From the NCBI GenBank assembly GCA_017306015.1, contig JAFKJK010000007.1, positions 558,001-622,000 on the forward strand: a stretch of 64,000 nucleotides of DNA, read 5' to 3'. Below the pieces are notes generated by a model. The model had not been told where the DNA came from. It saw nothing but the letters and a program-made list of their open reading frames with translations, and did no database searches. The translations under genes and the position numbers were made by a program. Of this stretch, positions 52,030-61,755 are shown piece after piece; positions within the stretch are counted from its first letter, which is position 1; every line of letters begins with the position of its first letter. The DNA is from Propionibacteriaceae bacterium (GTDB taxonomy: Bacteria; Actinomycetota; Actinomycetes; Propionibacteriales; Propionibacteriaceae).

Positions 52030-52962
52030 TCAGGGCACCAGGTAGCCGGCGGCCCGGTAGAGCTCGTACCACTCCGGACGCGTGAGCACGACGTCCGCAC
52101 CCTTCGCCGCCGCGGTGACCCGCTCGGGTGTCGTGGTGCCGAGGACGACCTGCATGCGCGCCGGGTGTCGGGTGATCCACGCGGTCGCGATGGCCTCCGC
52201 TTCGACCTCGTACTTCGCGGCGAGCCGGTCGATCACCTCGTTCAGCTCCGGGTAGTCGGGGTTGCCGAGGAACACACCGGTGAAGAAGCCGGCCTGGAAC
52301 GGCGACCACGCCTGGACGGTGATGTCGTGCAGGCGGCAGTAGTCGAGGACGCCGAGGTCGCGGCTGAGCGACTGGTCGAGGGCGGCCATGTTCATCGCGA
52401 CCCCCTGGGCGATGATCGGCGCATGGGTGATCGACAGCTGCACCTGGTTGGCGACCAGCGGCTGGCGGACGTGGCGCTTGAGCAGTTCGATCTGGCCCGG
52501 CGTGTGGTTGGACACCCCGAAGGCCCGCACCTTGCCGGCGGCTTCGAGCTCGTCGAACGCCTTCGCGACCTCCTCCGGCTCGACCAGGGCGTCGGGACGA
52601 TGCAGCAGCAGGATGTCGATGTAGTCGGTGGCCAGCGCCTTCAGCGAGCCCTCGACGGCTTCCACGATGTGGTCGTGGGAGAAGTCGAAGTACGGTCCGG
52701 ACGGCACGATGCCGGCCTTGGTCTGCAGCGTGATCTCCGACCGCTGGGACGGGCTGAGGTTCAGCGCCTCGGCGAACCGACGCTCGCAGCCGTGGATGTC
52801 GGAGCCGTAGATGTCGGCATGGTCGAAGAAGTCGATGCCGGCAGCCAGGGACGCATCGAACAGCGCCCGCACGTCCGCGTCCGACTTCTCCTGGATGCGC
52901 ATCACGCCCGTGACGACCGCGGGCACGGTGATGTCCGTGCCGGTCAGGGTGAAGGTCTTCAT
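52030..52962 (-). CDS. Aldo/keto reductase (YdhF-like)
   Basis: 310 residues. AKR features are FFDHADIYG (catalytic Asp and Tyr), the lysine in LQTKAG, and the histidine in ILLLHRPDAL, with the C-terminal NADPH site LGTTTPERV. It reduces carbonyls with NADPH; the substrate is unknown. It is divergent from the sugar ABC operon across a 229-bp region, so it may belong to that locus. Confidence 0.93.
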   Translation of the reverse strand: MKTFTLTGTDITVPAVVTGVMRIQEKSDADVRALFDASLAAGIDFFDHADIYGSDIHGCERRFAEALNLSPSQRSEITLQTKAGIVPSGPYFDFSHDHIVEAVEGSLKALATDYIDILLLHRPDALVEPEEVAKAFDELEAAGKVRAFGVSNHTPGQIELLKRHVRQPLVANQVQLSITHAPIIAQGVAMNMAALDQSLSRDLGVLDYCRLHDITVQAWSPFQAGFFTGVFLGNPDYPELNEVIDRLAAKYEVEAEAIATAWITRHPARMQVVLGTTTPERVTAAAKGADVVLTRPEWYELYRAAGYLVP

Positions 52963-53052
52963 GTCAGGTTCCTCTCTCGGGCCGCCGCAACGAGGCTCAA
53001 CGCGATCCGGCCCGACCTCAACCTATCGGCTGTCATGGACACTCGACGTTCT

Positions 53053-53065
53053 GAAATGAAATTTC
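53053..53065 (+). promoter_or_regulatory. Palindrome upstream of the ABC operon, candidate RpiR operator
   Basis: GAAAT-GAA-ATTTC, perfect 5-bp arms, unusually AT-rich for this genome. It lies 127 bp before the binding-protein gene and near the divergent aldo/keto reductase. RpiR-family regulators often bind GAAAT/ATTTC palindromes. A second inverted repeat (TGTGCGG / CCGCACA) follows at about 53101-53123. Confidence 0.5.
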
Positions 53066-53191
53066 TTGCCATCGTCCGATCCGCGAGCTATGGTTTCGCC
53101 TGTGCGGTGCGAGGCCGCACACACTGAGTGGGTTTCGCCGGCGAACCGCGCTGCGGATCCAGTCAGCCACGACGCTGAAAGGCAGGTTCAG

Positions 53192-54562
53192 ATGACAAGG
53201 TGGTCGAACCACAAAACGACCTGGCGACTCGGGATCGGGCTCGTCGCGACAGGCATGGTGACACTCGCCGGCTGCGCCGGCGCACCCGCGCCGAACTCCA
53301 CCAGTGCCACGACGGGGGCCGCAGTCGTGGCGGGACAGTGCCCCGCGTCCGACGGCCCGGTCACCCTCAACTACTGGTCCTGGGGCGCTGGCTACGAGGA
53401 CGCGGCGAAGCTGTGGAACTCCACCCACCCCGACATCCAGGTCACCTACAGCGACATCCCCGTGGGCAACTCCGGCGGCTACCAGAAGATGTTCAACGCG
53501 GTGAAGGCGGGAACGGCACCCGACATCGGCTTCCTCGAGTTCGACAACATCGCCGCCTTCGGCAGCCAGGACTATCTGGCCGACGTGTCCGGCTACGTCA
53601 CCGATGCCCAGAAGGCGGACTTCGTCGCACCCGTGAAGAAGGCGGTCTCGCTCGGCACCGACGGAGCGATGTTCTCCGTCCCGATCGGCGGCGGTCCGAT
53701 GGCGCTGATCTACCGCAAGGACCTGTTCACCAAGCACGGCATCGACGTGCCCACCACCTGGGCGGAGTTCGAGCAGGCAGCTGCCAAGGTGCACAAGGCC
53801 GACCCGAGCGCCGTCCTGGCGAACTTCGACGGCTACGGCAACGCCAACTGGTTCGCCGGGCTGTCGTCGCAGAACAAGGCGCAGTGGTTCGCACCCGACG
53901 GCGACGGCTGGAAGGTGAGCGTGAACGACGCCGCCAGCAAGGCCACCGCGGACCTGTGGCAGCGAATGCTCGACGCCAGGAGTGCCTCCGACCTGGCGAC
54001 CTTCTCCCCCGCCTGGAGCTCGGCTCTGGCCAAGGGCAAGATCTGGTCGTGGCCGACCGCGGTCTGGGGCGCCGGTGTGGTCAAGAGCTCGGCTCCGGAC
54101 ACGTCCGGCGACTGGGCGGTCGCGCCACTGCCGACGTGGAATGCCGGCGAGAAGGTGTCGGCGACCTGGGGCGGCGGGGGCCTTTCGGTCTTCAAGACCT
54201 CCAAGCACCCGTGTGAGGCCGCGCAGTTCGCGCTGTGGATGGGCACCAGCCCGGACGCGCTGAAGATCCTGAACAAGGCCATCGGCATCTACCCGACCAC
54301 CAACACCCTGCTGGCCGACCCGCTGTTCTCCGAACCGGACAAGTTCTTCGGCGACCAGAAGATCTTCGACGTGTTCCGCGCCGCCTCCGAGGTCACCCCT
54401 GACTTCACCTGGGGGCCGTCGATGACCGACACCTACAAGGCCATCACGGACGCGTTCACCAACGCCAAGACAGCGAAGTCGTCGCTGTCGGCAGCGCTGG
54501 ACGAGGCCCAGACAGCAGTGGTGTCATCGATGCAGAAGGACGGCTTCACCGTAAGCCAGTGA
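53192..54562 (+). CDS. Carbohydrate ABC transporter substrate-binding lipoprotein
   Basis: 456 residues. Signal peptide with lipobox VTLAGC (Cys about 29), then a family-1 solute-binding protein: LNYWSWGAGYEDAAKLWN, GTAPDIGFLEFDNI, GGPMALIYRKDLF and a C-terminal SLSAALDEAQ. It delivers a sugar or oligosaccharide to the two permeases downstream. The ATG at 53192 is preceded by GAAAGGCAGG. The ligand cannot be predicted from sequence; nearby esterases suggest an acylated sugar. Confidence 0.94.
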   Translation: MTRWSNHKTTWRLGIGLVATGMVTLAGCAGAPAPNSTSATTGAAVVAGQCPASDGPVTLNYWSWGAGYEDAAKLWNSTHPDIQVTYSDIPVGNSGGYQKMFNAVKAGTAPDIGFLEFDNIAAFGSQDYLADVSGYVTDAQKADFVAPVKKAVSLGTDGAMFSVPIGGGPMALIYRKDLFTKHGIDVPTTWAEFEQAAAKVHKADPSAVLANFDGYGNANWFAGLSSQNKAQWFAPDGDGWKVSVNDAASKATADLWQRMLDARSASDLATFSPAWSSALAKGKIWSWPTAVWGAGVVKSSAPDTSGDWAVAPLPTWNAGEKVSATWGGGGLSVFKTSKHPCEAAQFALWMGTSPDALKILNKAIGIYPTTNTLLADPLFSEPDKFFGDQKIFDVFRAASEVTPDFTWGPSMTDTYKAITDAFTNAKTAKSSLSAALDEAQTAVVSSMQKDGFTVSQ

Positions 54563-54566
54563 TCTG

Positions 54567-55559
54567 ATGCCTGACCCAATCTCACCCCTGGCGGAGCCGG
54601 CCACCGCGGCCGGCTCCGCCGTGTCGGCCGACGTACGGAAGGTCCGGGGCCGGTCCGCCGATCCCTCCCGGAGGAACCGCAGGAAAAGGGCCGACCTGCG
54701 GACGGTCGCCGTCCTCACCCTCCCGTTCCTCGTCCTGTTCGCCGCCTTCTACATCGCCCCGATCCTGTACGCCATCTGGCAGAGCCTGTTCGCTCTCCGC
54801 CGCAGCGGCGCCTACCGTCCCGCCGAGAACGTGTTCGTCGGGCTCGGCAACTACGCCCAGGTTCTGACGGACCCGGCGTTCCAGCAGAGCCTGGCCAACG
54901 TCGGGCTGTACGCGATCGGTCCGTCCACCCTCACGGTGCTGATCGGCCTGCTGATCGCCCTGGTCATCGACGCGCGGGCGAACCGGCTCGGCGCCAAGCT
55001 GGCGCGAGCAGCCGTCTTCGCCCCCTACGCGGTCCCCGCCGTGATCGGCGCGACCATCTGGGGCTTCCTCTACGCCCCCTCGACCAGCCCGTTCGTCTCC
55101 GCAGCCCAGGCGGTCGGCTGGGACGTGAACCCCCTTGCCGGGCCGGTGGTCTGGCAGGTGGGCAACATCGCACTGTGGACCTACATCGGGTTCAACGTCC
55201 TGATCTTCGCCTCCGGGTTGGCGTCCATCGACCCCAGCATGCTGGAGAGCGCCCGGATGGACGGGGCGTCCTCCCTGCGGATCGCCTGGTCGATCAAGCT
55301 GCCGCTGCTGCGTCCCTCGATCGTGCTCAGCATCGTGTTCAACCTGATCGGAACCCTGCAGCTGTTCACCGAGCCGATGGCACTACGGACGCTGTCGAAC
55401 GAGATCTCCAGTGTCTGGACGCCGAACATGCTCGCCTACAGCGAGGCCGCGGCGAACCGCTACAGCTTCTCGGCAGCGGTCTCGACGCTGCTGGCGGTGG
55501 TCACGGCCGTCTTCTCGTTCGCGCTGCTGCGGGCGGCGACGAGGGGGGCCAAGTCATGA
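54567..55559 (+). CDS. ABC sugar transporter permease (MalF/UgpA type)
   Basis: 330 residues, six core transmembrane helices, preceded by a ~45-residue basic cytoplasmic leader. The EAA loop is ESARMDGASSLRIAWSIKLP (split: ESARMDGASS, LRIAWSIKLP). It forms the membrane channel with the next gene. Starts 4 bp after the binding-protein gene. Confidence 0.95.
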   Translation: MPDPISPLAEPATAAGSAVSADVRKVRGRSADPSRRNRRKRADLRTVAVLTLPFLVLFAAFYIAPILYAIWQSLFALRRSGAYRPAENVFVGLGNYAQVLTDPAFQQSLANVGLYAIGPSTLTVLIGLLIALVIDARANRLGAKLARAAVFAPYAVPAVIGATIWGFLYAPSTSPFVSAAQAVGWDVNPLAGPVVWQVGNIALWTYIGFNVLIFASGLASIDPSMLESARMDGASSLRIAWSIKLPLLRPSIVLSIVFNLIGTLQLFTEPMALRTLSNEISSVWTPNMLAYSEAAANRYSFSAAVSTLLAVVTAVFSFALLRAATRGAKS

Positions 55560-56398
55560 CCGGTCTTCGGAAGGTACAGCCGGCCAACGCGGCCGTCCTG
55601 GTGGTGATGTGCGCCTACTTCGTACTGCCGCTGTGGTGGCTCGCGGTCTCGGCGACCAAGACTCAGGGCGAGCTGGTCCAGGACTCCGGCCTGTTCTCGG
55701 CTTCGAACCACTTCCTCAGCAATGTGGCCGACCTCTACGCCCGCGACTCTGGCGTCTTCGGCCGCTGGCTGGTCAACAGCCTGCTCTACGCCGGGGTCGG
55801 CGCCGCCGTCGGCACCGTCCTGGCCGCGGCCGTCGGCTACGCGCTCAGCAAGTACCGCTTCACCGGCCGGGACGCACTGTTCAACGCGATCCTCGCCGGT
55901 GTGCTGGTGCCGCCGGCGGCTCTCGCCCTGCCGCTGTTCCTGATGTTCAGCCGGGTCGGCCTGACCAATACCTACTGGGCGGTGCTCCTGCCCAGCCTGG
56001 TCAGCCCGCTGGCGGTGTACCTGGCCAGGGTGTCGATCGATGCGGCCGTGCCGGACGAGGTCGTCGAGGCGGCGTCGGTGGACGGCGCGGGCGGCGTCCG
56101 GACGTTCGCCCTGATCGGGCTGCCGATGATGGGCCCCGGCCTGGTGACCATCTTCCTGTTCCAGTTCGTGCTGATCTGGAACAACTTCATGCTGCCGCTG
56201 ATCATGCTCAACGACTCCTCCCTCTACCCGGTCACCCTCGGCCTCTACAACTGGAGCGGGCAGTTCATCCAGGACCCGACGCTGGCCACCAGCGTCCTCG
56301 TCGGCGCACTGATCGCCGTGCTTCCGGTGATCGTCGGCTTCCTGTTGCTGCAGCGGTTCTGGAACACCGGACTCACCCAAGGTGCGGTGAAGTCGTGA
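55556..56398 (+). CDS. ABC sugar transporter permease (MalG/UgpE type)
   Basis: 280 residues, six transmembrane helices, EAA loop EVVEAASVDGAGGVRTFALI. The ATG at 55556 overlaps the previous stop by four bases (ATGA). No ATPase gene is in the operon; in actinobacteria a shared MsiK/UgpC-type ATPase usually serves such transporters. Confidence 0.95.
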   Translation: MTGLRKVQPANAAVLVVMCAYFVLPLWWLAVSATKTQGELVQDSGLFSASNHFLSNVADLYARDSGVFGRWLVNSLLYAGVGAAVGTVLAAAVGYALSKYRFTGRDALFNAILAGVLVPPAALALPLFLMFSRVGLTNTYWAVLLPSLVSPLAVYLARVSIDAAVPDEVVEAASVDGAGGVRTFALIGLPMMGPGLVTIFLFQFVLIWNNFMLPLIMLNDSSLYPVTLGLYNWSGQFIQDPTLATSVLVGALIAVLPVIVGFLLLQRFWNTGLTQGAVKS

Positions 56399-57396
56399 GC
56401 CAGGACGCCCTGGAGCCGGCCATCGCCGCCCACTTCGCGGAACGGGCGGCGCAGGGGACGCTCAGCGTCGCCCCGCTCGGCCCCGAGGACGCCCGGCTGC
56501 TGTCGGCGACCGGACAGGAGCTGGGCACCGCTGCCGACCAGCCGTCGGTGCCCTCGCGGGACATCGTGATCCGGCTGGCCGGCCGGGACCTGCCCGGACG
56601 GGTCTACCCGGCACCGGGAGCGAGGCACGGCGAAGCCACTCCGGTCGTGGTCTGGTACCACGGCGGCGGCTTCGTGCTGTGCGACCTCGACTCCGCCGAC
56701 GGGATCTGCTCCCGCCTGGTCACCAACACCGGCGCCACGGTCATCTCGGTCGGCTATCGCCTGGCCCCCGAGGATCCGTGGCCGGCCGCCCATGACGACG
56801 CCGCCGACGCGCTGGCATGGGTGCACGCCCACGCCGCCGAGCTGGGGGTGGATCCGGGTCGCATCGCCGTCGCCGGGGACTCGGCCGGAGCGACCCTGGC
56901 CGCATGGGCGGCGACGACCGCCGCGCACGTCCTGGGGATCCCCGTCGTCCTGCAGGTGCTGTTCTATCCGGTCATCTCCGCCCGGGCCGACTCGGGCTCC
57001 TACCGGCAGTTCGCCAGCGGGTGGGGACTCGACCGCGACGAGATGCTCTGGTTCCTGCGGCACTACGGCGTCCTGGACGGCCCCGCCAGGGACGAGTTCG
57101 ACCGCACGCTCGCCGACCCGAGACCGCCGCTGGCGCCGATCCACCTGGTCAGCGCCGAGTGCGACATCCTTCGTGACGAGGGCGAACGATACCTCGCGCA
57201 CGCCCGGGCCGCCGGTGTCGCCACCACCGGGGTGCGCCACCTCGGCGTGCCCCACGGCTTCGTCCAGCTCACCGGCCTGACGCCGCAGGCCGACGCCGCC
57301 CTCGCCGGCGCGGCGCGGGCGCTGCGGCAGGCGTTCACCGCTCGGGCCGAAGCCGCGGCTCCGGGCGTCCGCACGGCTACCCTTGGCACGAACTAG
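56395..57396 (+). CDS. Alpha/beta hydrolase, hormone-sensitive-lipase-type esterase
   Basis: 333 residues from GTG 56395, overlapping the permease stop (GTGA). HSL family: oxyanion motif HGGGFVLCD, nucleophile GDSAGAT, acid in SAECDILRDEG and histidine in VPHGF. It is likely to hydrolyse short acyl esters in the cytoplasm. Translational coupling to the permeases suggests it acts on the imported compound. Confidence 0.93.
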   Translation: MSQDALEPAIAAHFAERAAQGTLSVAPLGPEDARLLSATGQELGTAADQPSVPSRDIVIRLAGRDLPGRVYPAPGARHGEATPVVVWYHGGGFVLCDLDSADGICSRLVTNTGATVISVGYRLAPEDPWPAAHDDAADALAWVHAHAAELGVDPGRIAVAGDSAGATLAAWAATTAAHVLGIPVVLQVLFYPVISARADSGSYRQFASGWGLDRDEMLWFLRHYGVLDGPARDEFDRTLADPRPPLAPIHLVSAECDILRDEGERYLAHARAAGVATTGVRHLGVPHGFVQLTGLTPQADAALAGAARALRQAFTARAEAAAPGVRTATLGTN

Positions 57397-57406
57397 GAGG
57401 TACGGG

Positions 57407-58288
57407 ATGGCGCTCTTGAGCGCGGGCGGAGAGTGGGCTCGCGACGTCCGCAGCCCACTCGTCTTGATCGCGCAGTCTCGCGAGCAACTGCACGAGGCCG
57501 AGGGCAGGGTCGCGGACCTGGTGCTCAACGACCCCGGCTTCGTGGTCCAGGCGACGGTCTCGCAGGTCGCCCAGGCCGCCGACACGTCGGACGCCACCGT
57601 GGTCCGGTTCTGCCGTTCCGTCGGCTTCCGCGGCTTTCCCGAGCTGCGGATGGCGCTCACCAGGGACATGACCAGGGCCGAGGAGGTGGGCAGCGCCCGC
57701 GGACACGTCGACCCGCTGCTGCCCACCGACCAGGCCATCGTCACGTACTTCTCGGCACAGCGCGTGGCCCTGGGCAACACCATGGAGATCCAGCAGGCCT
57801 CCGTCCTGGAGGAGGCGGTCGCTGCGATCGCCGGCGCCACCGTCTTGTTGATCCTCGGGGACCGGCAGCGGTCGGCCCTCGCCAAGGAGGCCGAGCGGCG
57901 GTTCAGCTCGATCGGCATTCCGTCCCACGCGGTCTCCGAACTCGAGTCGCTCACCGGGGTGCTGACCCGGCTCCGGCCCGGTGCGGTACTGCTGGTCCTT
58001 CCCGGGCCCGTCGCGCCCGCCCCGTTCCTCCGAGTGACCCAGCTCGCCAAGGAGCGCGAGGTGTCCTCGATCGTCGTCTCGCCCTCGGTCACCGACGAGA
58101 TCGCCTCCCTGGCGGACGTCTTCATCGCGATCCACTCCGGCAACGTCACCGTCGGCACGATCACGATCGAGTCGCTGGTCTCCGAACTCGCGCTGATGGA
58201 GGCGCTGGTTGTCGGCACTGCGCAGCAGGATCACGCCCGCACCTCCACCGCGATGAGCCTGCTCCAGGATCCGGCACTCCAGCCCTGA
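57407..58288 (+). CDS. RpiR-family (HTH-SIS) transcriptional regulator
   Basis: 293 residues from ATG 57407 (AGGAGGT upstream). HTH_6 domain at about 25-95 (VSQVAQAADTSDATVVRFCR) and SIS sugar-phosphate-binding domain at about 120-260. It senses a phosphosugar and probably controls this operon through the GAAAT-GAA-ATTTC site. It starts 11 bp after the esterase gene. Confidence 0.93.
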   Translation: MALLSAGGEWARDVRSPLVLIAQSREQLHEAEGRVADLVLNDPGFVVQATVSQVAQAADTSDATVVRFCRSVGFRGFPELRMALTRDMTRAEEVGSARGHVDPLLPTDQAIVTYFSAQRVALGNTMEIQQASVLEEAVAAIAGATVLLILGDRQRSALAKEAERRFSSIGIPSHAVSELESLTGVLTRLRPGAVLLVLPGPVAPAPFLRVTQLAKEREVSSIVVSPSVTDEIASLADVFIAIHSGNVTVGTITIESLVSELALMEALVVGTAQQDHARTSTAMSLLQDPALQP

Positions 58289-58297
58289 GACGTCGCC

Positions 58298-60169
58298 ATG
58301 GCCACCATCGGCATCTCGATCGGCTCGCAGTGCCTGGGAATCACCGATCCGGGCTGTGTCGGGGTCCCGGTCTGGCGTGCCGAGTTCGGACGGGACGGGC
58401 ACAGCACCCGGCTCCTCGACCTGGCGTCGCTGGACGGGCTGCGCGAGATGTGGACGTGCGACGCCGTGGTGCTGGTCAGTGACGGCAGCTACCCGGAGGC
58501 CAATCTCGCGCTGACGCTGGCCAGCCTGACCGCGTGGTGCCGGCGAGGCGGCGTCCTGGCGACGGTCGGCGGAGCGCCGTTCCTGGTCTCCCAGCGTCCG
58601 GACGGAGCGGTCGCCGACCCCGGCGTGGCAGTGGACGTGACCGAGTGCCTGGTGTCGAGCACCCTTGAGGAGGTCGAACTGCGGCTCACTCGGCTCGGCC
58701 GCGAACTGCTGGGCGCCGGCGCCCTCCCGGCCAGCCTGCTGGAACTGGATCTCGGCTCGCGCCTGCCGCTCGCCCTGTACTCCCCCGCTCAGGCCGACGA
58801 GGTCGCCGCGGAGTCCACTCGCGGCGAGGCGGTGCTGTCGGCTTTCCAGCTCGGGCAGGGCTGGTGGGTGACCTGGGGTGCGGCCGTACAACCCGGCTAC
58901 GCAGCGACGATCGTCCGAGGTGTCGCCGGGCTGGTCCGTCGGCACCTGCCGTCCGCTCCCCCGGCACGGCCGGGGATCGTCCTGGACCCGCTGCGGCGTC
59001 GGCTCGACCACGGCGACGACGAGGTGCTCGGGCTCGCTGAGCTGAGCTCGGCGCCGCTGGAACTCGTCGACCAGGACACCTCGGTCCGGTGGAGCGGGAC
59101 CGCGGACGCGGACGGTGTGGCCCGGTTCCGGGTGCCGGCCACCCTGCAGCTGTCGAGCCTCGGCGTCCTGCATCCCGACCTGCCCGACAGCGGCTTCTCC
59201 CTCGTCGCGCCGGCGCCGAGCGCGTCCCCCGCGCTCGGCGCGGTCACTGCCGAGCCCGCCGACTTCGACACCTTCTGGGCGGACCGGCTCGCCGAACTGA
59301 ACGCGGAACCGCCGGACTTCGAACTCACCGCGTTCCCGCGATTCACGACCGCGGCCTTCACCGGGCACCGGCTGCGCTACCGCGGCGCGGGCGGCCTGGC
59401 GATCACCGGGGTGGTGACCGTCCCCCGCTCTGGCGAGCCGGCTCCCGGCGTCCTGGCGATCCCGGGCTATGCGTCCGCCGGTATCACCGAGCACCTGACC
59501 GAGTTCGCGGACCGGGCGGTCGTCGCGTCCATCGACGTCCGCCAGGTCGGCTCGATCCTGCGGCCGCCGGGGCGAGGTCGGGGGCCACTCTGCGAGGGCC
59601 TGGACCACCCGGACCGGGCCGGCATGATCGCGGCGGCACTGGACGCCGTCCGCGGCTTCCAGGTGCTCGCCGGACTCTGTCCCGGCGGACCCACCGCGAT
59701 CTACGGGCACAGCCAGGGCGCGACGCTCGGGCTGGCTGTGGGCGCGCTCTGCCCGGACGCAGCCGGTGTGGTCGCCGGCGTGCCGTTCCTGGTCAACCTG
59801 CAGCACAACCTGCCCCGGTGCTCGACCGATCCCTACGTCGAACTGCGCTGGCACCTTGAGCGGCATCCGGAGCAGGAGGGTTCCGGGCTTCGGACCCTTT
59901 CCTACCTGGACCCGCGGTTCTTCCTGCCGCGGCTCAAGCGACCCTGCCTGCTCACCCTCGCACCGGACGACGACGTGGCTCCCGGGATGGAACTGGCCGG
60001 CGTCGCCGCGTCCTGCCCGGGTGTCCGGCTGGTCGTCCGCGGTGGAGGCCACATCGTGCCGTACCTGCCCGAGCAGCGGAGGCTGGCGGGAGGCTTCCTC
60101 CACCAGGTCCTGGGACTGCCCGGCGCAGAGGGGGACGAGCTCGCCGCGGCCGCTCAGCCCTCGCGATAG
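58298..60169 (+). CDS. GATase-like domain fused to acetyl-xylan-esterase/cephalosporin-deacetylase-type hydrolase
   Basis: 623 residues. The N-terminal ~220 residues resemble the glutamine-amidotransferase-like fold of sugar-active proteins (CDAVVLVSDGSYPE, TAWCRRGGVLATVGGAPFL) without a catalytic Cys-His pair that I can identify. After a beta-rich linker, an AXE1-type hydrolase begins near 325 (FDTFWADRLAELN). It has nucleophile GHSQGATLG, acid in LAPDDDVAPG and histidine in VRGGGHIVPY. It probably removes acyl groups from the imported glycoside. It ends inside the convergent fixX gene (16-base overlap). Confidence 0.8.
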   Translation: MATIGISIGSQCLGITDPGCVGVPVWRAEFGRDGHSTRLLDLASLDGLREMWTCDAVVLVSDGSYPEANLALTLASLTAWCRRGGVLATVGGAPFLVSQRPDGAVADPGVAVDVTECLVSSTLEEVELRLTRLGRELLGAGALPASLLELDLGSRLPLALYSPAQADEVAAESTRGEAVLSAFQLGQGWWVTWGAAVQPGYAATIVRGVAGLVRRHLPSAPPARPGIVLDPLRRRLDHGDDEVLGLAELSSAPLELVDQDTSVRWSGTADADGVARFRVPATLQLSSLGVLHPDLPDSGFSLVAPAPSASPALGAVTAEPADFDTFWADRLAELNAEPPDFELTAFPRFTTAAFTGHRLRYRGAGGLAITGVVTVPRSGEPAPGVLAIPGYASAGITEHLTEFADRAVVASIDVRQVGSILRPPGRGRGPLCEGLDHPDRAGMIAAALDAVRGFQVLAGLCPGGPTAIYGHSQGATLGLAVGALCPDAAGVVAGVPFLVNLQHNLPRCSTDPYVELRWHLERHPEQEGSGLRTLSYLDPRFFLPRLKRPCLLTLAPDDDVAPGMELAGVAASCPGVRLVVRGGGHIVPYLPEQRRLAGGFLHQVLGLPGAEGDELAAAAQPSR

Positions 60170-60444
60170 GCGATCCCGAACCCGCCACGCGGATAGTGCC
60201 AGGTCAGCGCCCCCGGGGCGGCGACGGCAAGGCAGGTGCCGCATTCCAGGCACGCCGCATAGTTGACGCTGATCGTTCCGTCGGGCGCCTCGCCGTACAC
60301 CTGGGCGGGGCACACCCGGACCAGGAGCTTGCCGGTGCCCGTGCTGCGGGCGATCTCCTGGTTCACCTCGATGTGGCACTCCGCCTCGTCGAGGACGTAG
60401 GAGTTCCGGGCAAGCCGGTCGGTCACCGAGCCGTACGCACTCAT
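60154..60444 (-). CDS. fixX: FixX-type ferredoxin-like protein
   Basis: 96 residues with RVCPAQVYG and CLECGTCLAVA, the Fe-S motifs of FixX/ETF-QO ferredoxin domains. It partners FixC, directing electrons from ETF to quinone. It starts 12 bp after fixC. Its last codons overlap the convergent esterase gene. Confidence 0.93.
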   Translation of the reverse strand: MSAYGSVTDRLARNSYVLDEAECHIEVNQEIARSTGTGKLLVRVCPAQVYGEAPDGTISVNYAACLECGTCLAVAAPGALTWHYPRGGFGIAYREG

Positions 60445-60456
60445 CTGTCCTCCTGC

Positions 60457-61755
60457 CTACAGCGCCCGGGCGGCGGCCCAGCCGTCGCGGGCGAGTTGTC
60501 CCAGGCCGACGCCTGACGCCTTCACCGCGCCGAGCGCCGCGCCGACGAGGTGACGGCGTGGACGCAGGTCGTGGGTGTAGATCCCGTGGAACACGTCGGC
60601 CAGCAACCTGCCGTAGTCGCCGTACATTCGCGGATTCTCCAGAAACTTGGGCGCCCTGCCGTACGTCCTCAGGTCGGCGCCGACGAAGCTGCGCTCGAGC
60701 TCCGTCCGATACGCGCCCAGCGCCTCGCCCGAGCAGTCGCCGGTGGACAGTGCGGCTGCCACCGTCCTCGCGGCGGCGAGGGCACTGCCGGCGGCCAGGT
60801 CCATGCCCCGGATCGTCAGCCCGGTGTTGAGGGTGAGGCCGGCGGCGTCGCCGATGAGCACCAGTCCGGGCCGGGTCAGGTCGCGGGCAGCCATGGCCGG
60901 CCCGTCCTCGATCGTCAGGTGGCAGCCGTACTCGAGCAGTTCGCCGCCCCTGATCAGCGGCGCGATCGCCGGATGGGCGAGGAAGTGGTCGTGCACGTCG
61001 GACGAGCTCAGGCCCCGCGCGCCCAGGTCGTCCAGGCGCAGCACCACCCCGACCGAGACCGACTCCCGATTGGTGTAGAGGAAGCCGCCGCCGGCGACCC
61101 CCTGGGTGCAGTCGCCCACGACCGCATACGCCACCCCCTCGTCGCCGGTCACCCGGAAGCGATCCTCGATCACCGGCCGTGGCAGCGCGATCACCGACTT
61201 CACGCCGACAGCCAGGTGCCGCTGCGGCTCCTTCGGGCGCACCCCGGCGTCCCTGGCCAGGAAGGAGTTCACGCCGTCGGCCGCGACCACCACATGGGCA
61301 CGCAGCTCGTCCTCGCCGGCGCGGACGCCGACGACGCGCTCCCCGTCCCGGAGCAGTCCGTCGACGCGGACGCCCGGCATCACCATGGCTCCGGCCTGTT
61401 CGCACTGCTCGGCCAGCCAGGGATCAAGCCGGGCGCGCAGCACGGTGACCGCGTTGGCCGGCTCGGCCAGGCGCTCGTCCCAGTAGTCGATGTTCACGTG
61501 CGAGTCGCCGTTCAGGAAGCTCAGCACGTTGCGGGTGATCCGCCGCTCGACGGGGGCGGACGACACGAAGTCCGGGAAGACCTCGTCCAGCACCCGGCAG
61601 TAGAAGACGCCGCCGGACAGGTTCTTCGAGCCGGGCTCCGACCCACGCTCGATCAGCACGACCTCGTGCCCGGCCTTGGCGAGCTGGTGCGCGCACACTG
61701 ATCCGGCGACACCGGCCCCGATCACGATCACGTCGAAGTCGACATCGTCACTCAT
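60457..61755 (-). CDS. fixC: FixC-type ETF:quinone oxidoreductase flavoprotein
   Basis: 432 residues. FAD motif VIGAGVAGSVCAHQLAKAGH, LIERGSEPGSKNLSGGVFY, and LVLIGDAAGLTLNTGLTIRGMD (split at GLTL-NTGL). FixC carries ETF electrons with FixX to the quinone pool and is part of electron-bifurcating FixABCX. GGAAGGG ribosome site before ATG 61755. Confidence 0.93.
   Translation of the reverse strand: MSDDVDFDVIVIGAGVAGSVCAHQLAKAGHEVVLIERGSEPGSKNLSGGVFYCRVLDEVFPDFVSSAPVERRITRNVLSFLNGDSHVNIDYWDERLAEPANAVTVLRARLDPWLAEQCEQAGAMVMPGVRVDGLLRDGERVVGVRAGEDELRAHVVVAADGVNSFLARDAGVRPKEPQRHLAVGVKSVIALPRPVIEDRFRVTGDEGVAYAVVGDCTQGVAGGGFLYTNRESVSVGVVLRLDDLGARGLSSSDVHDHFLAHPAIAPLIRGGELLEYGCHLTIEDGPAMAARDLTRPGLVLIGDAAGLTLNTGLTIRGMDLAAGSALAAARTVAAALSTGDCSGEALGAYRTELERSFVGADLRTYGRAPKFLENPRMYGDYGRLLADVFHGIYTHDLRPRRHLVGAALGAVKASGVGLGQLARDGWAAARAL

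Follow-up and report, generated by a model that had tools for sequence, protein, structure and literature searches.

In F. prausnitzii, beta-mannooligosaccharides are imported by an ABC transporter and deacetylated in the cytosol by two complementary esterases, CE2 and CE17 (PMC8262883), and in R. cellulolyticum the xua cluster serves the import of acetylated oligosaccharides and encodes the cytosolic acetyl esterases XuaH and XuaJ (PMC9675976), as far as the available portions of both papers describe. Here we analyse a unit of this kind from a Propionibacteriaceae bacterium, located in a 64,000-nucleotide stretch of contig JAFKJK010000007.1 (the window; positions 558,001 to 622,000, or G000:C14:558001-622000 in our numbering) of a 4.24 Mb genome that is 99.5% complete. 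Its six genes encode, in this order, a solute-binding protein (SBP), two permeases (PermA and PermB), an HSL-family esterase (HSL), an RpiR-family regulator (RpiR) and a protein with an AXE1 esterase domain (AXE). Like the F. prausnitzii loci, the unit pairs an ABC importer with two apparently cytosolic esterases, and it shares with the xua cluster a solute-binding protein, two permeases and two such enzymes. However, the accessible text on F. prausnitzii places glycosidases, phosphorylases, a LacI regulator and other esterase families at its loci (PMC8262883), and that on xua describes four glycoside hydrolases, a two-component system and an arabinoxylan ligand (PMC9675976). An ABC sugar importer with two cytosolic esterases is a known kind of system, but this unit, without glycosidases, departs from its precedents. 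In the literature covered, where parts of the texts were available, an RpiR regulator, an acetyl xylan esterase and an ABC transporter appear together only in an unrelated streptococcal study.

The best explanation that we can offer, and one that we hold with moderate confidence, is that the unit imports a galactoside-like ligand and deacylates it in the cytosol, with repression by RpiR and energy from a shared ATPase. A CUT1-type ABC importer would take up a small oligosaccharide or glycoside resembling a galactoside, and a shared MsiK-like ATPase whose gene lies elsewhere would energise its two permeases. The compound taken up would carry, at least in part, O-acyl groups (most simply O-acetyl), and two cytosolic serine esterases, the PermB-coupled HSL enzyme and a divergent CE7-like enzyme, would strip them; the ester itself is unproven. 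RpiR, encoded within the unit, would most likely repress it by binding a single operator next to the -35 box, and would release that operator once its SIS domain has bound a sugar metabolite. A first-pass annotation of this DNA had already suggested uptake of an esterified sugar or aglycone ester followed by intracellular deacylation. That suggestion is borne out in part, by the single transcription unit, the cytosolic-looking esterases with their putative catalytic residues, the conserved gene coupling, the local operator and the ATPase candidate, and the two published precedents support it in kind, but we found no specific support for hydroxycinnamoyl or aglycone esters.

The six genes lie close-packed on the plus strand (53192-60169; Table 1), with spacings of 4, -4, -4, 10 and 9 bases from SBP to AXE. 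As the first-pass annotation had noted, HSL overlaps the second permease gene: its GTG start runs into the PermB stop (GTGA). One promoter-like site was found in the intergenic region ahead of SBP, against 0.1 expected, and none from the end of SBP through AXE, against 0.2 expected. The arrangement supports a single transcription unit, real and coherent, predicted to run from SBP to AXE. Every gene named in the earlier annotation is present between 52030 and 60169 with a strong domain match, and neither a glycoside hydrolase nor an ATPase is encoded there, again as described. A lipoprotein SBP_bac_1 protein and two BPD_transp_1 permeases make up a CUT1 importer, and HTH_6 and SIS domains place the regulator in the RpiR family.

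Two related genomes, G009 and G012, retain parts of this arrangement. Among 196 relatives (the window's own genome included), full-length AXE occurred only in the window and in G009 (65% identity), which also holds the sole close relative of RpiR (80%). Close relatives of SBP were found in G012 (85%) and G009 (77%, at a contig end), and those of HSL in G012 (58%) and G009 (63%, at a contig start); a PermB scan of the genus at E below 1e-60 matched 3 of 30 genomes, namely the window's, G012 (92%) and G011 (48%). In G009, HSL, RpiR and AXE are contiguous, SBP ends another contig and the permeases fall in the contig gap; the whole unit is most likely present, split over contigs C86 and C82, whose join we infer. 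In G012, SBP and the permeases are 83-92% identical to those of the window and PermB overlaps HSL by the same GTGA; no match to RpiR, AXE or the upstream aldo/keto reductase (AKR) was seen within the 20 kb read around the importer. Because the PermB-HSL overlap is kept in G012 and HSL-RpiR-AXE in G009, we read the genes as a functional unit, which this new comparative evidence and the conserved permease-esterase coupling support. Nonsynonymous and synonymous rates (dN and dS, NG86) between the window and G012, computed on shortened frames since the gene caller set some G012 starts later than likely, were 0.09 and 0.66 for SBP, 0.07 and 0.57 for PermA, 0.05 and 0.46 for PermB and, over 265 codons only, 0.33 and 0.84 for HSL. 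Between the window and G009 they were 0.14 and 0.56 for RpiR and 0.27 and 0.81 for AXE. By these estimates purifying selection acts on all six genes, and least strongly on the esterases.

The regulator appears to act locally. The candidate operator GAAATGAAATTTC, a perfect 5-base inverted repeat, touches the -35 hexamer of the only promoter. It matches perfectly at one place in the window's 4.24 Mb genome and at one in G009, both upstream of SBP, and nowhere in G012, which lacks RpiR. Sites with one mismatch number two in the window's genome, three in G009 and four in G012, and shuffles of the window gave a mean of 0.06 sites with at most one mismatch to the operator block. In G012, a perfect 16-base palindrome, GTGGATACGTATCCAC, stands ahead of SBP instead, together with a LacI gene that is divergent. 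Since regulator and site change together between the two RpiR genomes and G012, control of the unit by RpiR is supported; and since the only perfect operator in the window's genome and in G009 lies at the importer promoter, RpiR seems to govern the importer through it. From the position of the site, RpiR is most likely a repressor. These data bear on a different history, in which an older importer with HSL was merged with a later-inserted RpiR and AXE that serve a different sugar. G012, where the importer and HSL occur with LacI and the 20 kb read shows neither RpiR nor AXE, resembles the older half of such a composite, but in each of the two RpiR genomes the RpiR-type operator stands at the importer promoter and is perfect nowhere else, and we consider a merger very unlikely. 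The G012 locus (L079:9695-14987), a near-identical importer under a divergent LacI with GTGGATACGTATCCAC, is in itself a regulator swap within one genus, and offers a clean exchange of regulator and operator (RpiR for LacI) on nearly the same transporter.

Putative catalytic residues can be placed in both esterases. In an alignment of HSL to 4ypv, the HGGG and GDSAG motifs and the Asp and His residues are visible; Est8 and further esterases of the HSL family also align with the protein, and the two motifs together with PF07859 assign it to that family. A simple hydropathy scan found no hydrophobic leader in HSL or AXE, and both are therefore taken to be cytosolic. The first-pass annotation had called AXE an AXE1-type esterase, and the domain is indeed present (89.6 bits against a Pfam cut-off of 21), but it occupies only the C-terminal half of the protein. 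Like the CE7 acetyl xylan esterases and cephalosporin C deacetylases 1l7a and 1vlq, AXE has Ser, Asp and an oxyanion Tyr, with a candidate His. Tyr391, Ser472 and Asp558 align with CE7, and His585 was placed by eye, outside the CE7 His alignment column. Unlike these enzymes, AXE lacks the RGQ and HE motifs and has an extra 316-residue N-terminal region. The RGQ motif has a recognised role in the CE7 family; at its position AXE reads VRQVG in the window and VARA in G009, and the motif is kept in a second AXE1-domain protein of the window's genome and in those of L019, L020, L031, L033, L035 and L036. Because RGQ is not kept, we call AXE CE7-like rather than a CE7 member; by these comparisons it is a divergent CE7 relative. 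The second protein, a CE7 enzyme (G000:C20, L088), likewise stands in a sugar context but is single-domain, with GH3 and GH43 neighbours in the usual xylan arrangement.

MsiK is a shared ATPase, and a gene of this kind is expected to stand apart from permease genes. One ATPase in the window's genome, of MalK type and encoded at G000:C8:86884-87972, scores 466 bits against an NCBIfam UgpC cut-off of 432, and the 4.1 kb read around it shows no neighbouring permease gene. This orphan is a candidate for the shared MsiK-like partner that the first-pass annotation had called for; a gene is now located, but its pairing with the importer is one that we infer.

The best PDB match of SBP is 2z8d, a galacto-N-biose/lacto-N-biose binding protein (GL-BP; E 6e-40), followed by 7vfq and 7vfr and then by 6q5g and 6h0h, which we take to be Bal6GBP. 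The nearest solved relatives are the binding proteins of Bifidobacterium importers (2z8d, 7vfq, 6h0h), which places SBP in the GL-BP/Bal6GBP group. Importers of this group are known to work with phosphorylase or galactosidase pathways. 7VFQ is a lacto-N-tetraose complex (PMC12345172), and Bal6GBP, a beta-1,6-galactobiose protein, has a galactosyl subsite in common with GL-BP (PMC8106489), according to the available sections of these papers; in the latter, the pathway partner of the galacto-N-biose/lacto-N-biose importer is not an esterase (PMC8106489). Judged by sequence, our transporter belongs to the galacto-N-biose/lacto-N-biose/beta-galactobiose group; in a tree of concatenated transporter proteins, the window and G012 group together (support 1.0) and have no close partner.

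We compared 22 homologous loci, namely rows 3-25 of the SBP match list minus the G009 fragment, with weaker SBP matches excluded; L081 and L085 are among them, and L086 (G029, a contig end with a broken SBP) is uncounted. Genes of beta-galactosidase type stand beside 13 of the 22 transporters (GH42 at nine, GH2 at three, GH112 at one), other enzyme neighbours are an aldehyde dehydrogenase (three loci) and a DHDPS-like gene (one), and the part of the genes scanned at L081, L111, L117, L120 and L122 showed none of these enzymes. At L085:5043-10543, in G011 of the same genus, a gene of the GH112 lacto-N-biose phosphorylase family comes immediately after the importer; at L117 an apiosidase-like gene lies nearby, and at L119, L121 and L123 a same-direction aldehyde dehydrogenase gene precedes the importer. 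The relatives of SBP and the glycosidase neighbours therefore point to galactosides and make the esterases the departure; the ligand is probably a small galactoside-like oligosaccharide or glycoside.

Several observations weigh against our explanation. Neither esterase occurs at any homologous transporter beyond close orthologues (HSL, AXE, RpiR and AKR gave no match at E 1e-4 in any of the 22 loci), and G012 does without RpiR and AXE within the 20 kb read. The esterases also evolve faster than the transporter (HSL dN 0.33 against 0.05-0.09) and are therefore not tightly tied to one ligand; their pace counts as strongly against one fixed ligand common to both as it may favour changing acyl groups. 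In SBP, 17 of 95 conserved columns carry changes specific to the clade, a proportion that does not stand out from the control clades (0.02-0.34), so the sequence shows no sign of a new ligand pocket. Finally, the models that score best for HSL are a lipase, LipP1, and a chloramphenicol hydrolase, both below cut-off.

On this evidence a plain galactoside may be imported, with the esterases as accessory passengers whose substrates are other small esters or that just tidy stray acetyl groups, and with a glycosidase encoded elsewhere in the genome. Such a scheme is possible, though we are doubtful of it. The binding protein's relatives bind plain or N-acetylated galactosides, and the homologous loci carry GH42, GH2 or GH112 genes and neither esterase, all of which speaks for it, as does the faster divergence of the esterases. 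Yet HSL directly follows PermB with the same GTGA overlap in the window and G012, and HSL-RpiR-AXE is kept in G009. Moreover, the window's genome yielded a single GH42-like match, a weak one that covers part of the domain (E 8e-12), whereas G009 has a full one. No GH112 turned up in the window's genome either, in a search in which no control genome gave a match. The HSL models raise another alternative, that an acylated non-carbohydrate, glycosylated natural product or drug is imported and its ester cleaved for use or detoxification. HSL does match the chloramphenicol hydrolase (E 9e-57, 192 bits) and LipP1 (244 bits) models, but it falls short of their cut-offs of 500 and 350, the best solved relatives of SBP bind oligosaccharides and the solved AXE1/CE7 relatives of AXE are acetyl xylan esterases and cephalosporin C deacetylases. 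We regard this alternative as quite unlikely.

Uptake and deacylation of an acylated galactoside-like sugar, our preferred explanation, would make the unit a compact and testable case of how bacteria with no dedicated glycosidase encoded next to the importer may deal with ester decorations on small sugars after uptake. A bolder version, which we think unlikely, is that a galactoside importer was re-tasked within one genus for acylated glycosides: two esterases would have replaced the glycosidase, the new domain fused to AXE would bind or position the acyl-sugar, and deacylation would yield the signal that releases RpiR. If true, the pathway would be ester-first: its committed step would be removal of the ester rather than cleavage of the glycosidic bond.

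The orphan region fused to the CE7-like esterase is itself on offer for study. No Pfam family matched AXE residues 1-225, and a PDB profile search with this N-terminal region gave chance matches only. A profile of the region matched 5 of 391 genomes of the order, two strongly (the window and G009) and three partially at E 1e-4 to 1e-3; a profile of residues 1-306 matched 3 of 394 genomes of the class, the window strongly and two near threshold. By these profiles the region is convincingly found in two species only. A resemblance to the GH42 trimerisation domain was not supported (profile comparison probability 0.1%), and a single-sequence AlphaFold model of the 623-residue protein had a mean pLDDT of 36.6 and was not used. 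Elsewhere in the order, all four loci read (L082:10571-12347, L083:7044-8833, L084:10646-12394 and L089:9163-10940) have a sugar importer with its own ATPase followed by two AXE1 genes (SBP-PermA-PermB-ATPase-AXE1-AXE1). The second AXE1 copy has no GxSxG nucleophile motif in any of the four, and PF05448 still scores in the one tested.

Table 1. Features of the importer-esterase unit and its surroundings (window positions).
Feature	Position	Strand	Evidence or remark
AKR, divergent aldo/keto reductase, YdhF-like	52030..52962	-	PF00248 E 8e-49
Candidate RpiR operator, inverted repeat GAAAT-gaa-ATTTC (GAAATGAAATTTC)	53053..53065	.	Genome uniqueness
Sigma-70-like promoter, TTGCCA-17-TATGGT	53066..53094	+	Abuts candidate operator
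SBP, lipoprotein solute-binding protein, GL-BP/Bal6GBP-like	53192..54562	+	PF01547 E 5e-34; lipobox LAGC
PermA, CUT1 permease A	54567..55559	+	PF00528 E 4e-11
PermB, CUT1 permease B, 4-base overlap with PermA	55556..56398	+	PF00528 E 1e-15
HSL-family (Abhydrolase_3) esterase	56395..57396	+	PF07859 E 6e-56
RpiR-family regulator with SIS domain	57407..58288	+	PF01418 E 4e-20; PF01380 E 1e-7
AXE1 protein (AXE), 623 residues	58298..60169	+	PF05448 E 2e-25 over residues 317-562
Orphan N-terminal region of AXE, residues 1-316	58298..59245	+	No Pfam match (residues 1-225)
AXE1/CE7-like catalytic domain	59246..60169	+	PF05448; Tyr391, Ser472, Asp558, His585 (by eye); RGQ not kept

The aldo/keto reductase that the first-pass annotation had described as divergent is present on the minus strand, with the YdhF structures 1og6 and 1ur3 among its top PDB matches, but it is not conserved beside the unit. 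Since neither the G009 nor the G012 locus gave an AKR match, its membership of the pathway was rejected, and it is probably a neighbour rather than part of the conserved unit. Beyond AKR lies a cytochrome P450 gene (50222-51439, minus strand; PF00067 E 3e-13). At the other end, FixX/FixC-like genes for an electron transfer flavoprotein (ETF)-quinone oxidoreductase (60154-61755, minus strand) are convergent with AXE, the ETF ferredoxin gene next downstream overlapping the AXE 3' end by 16 bases.

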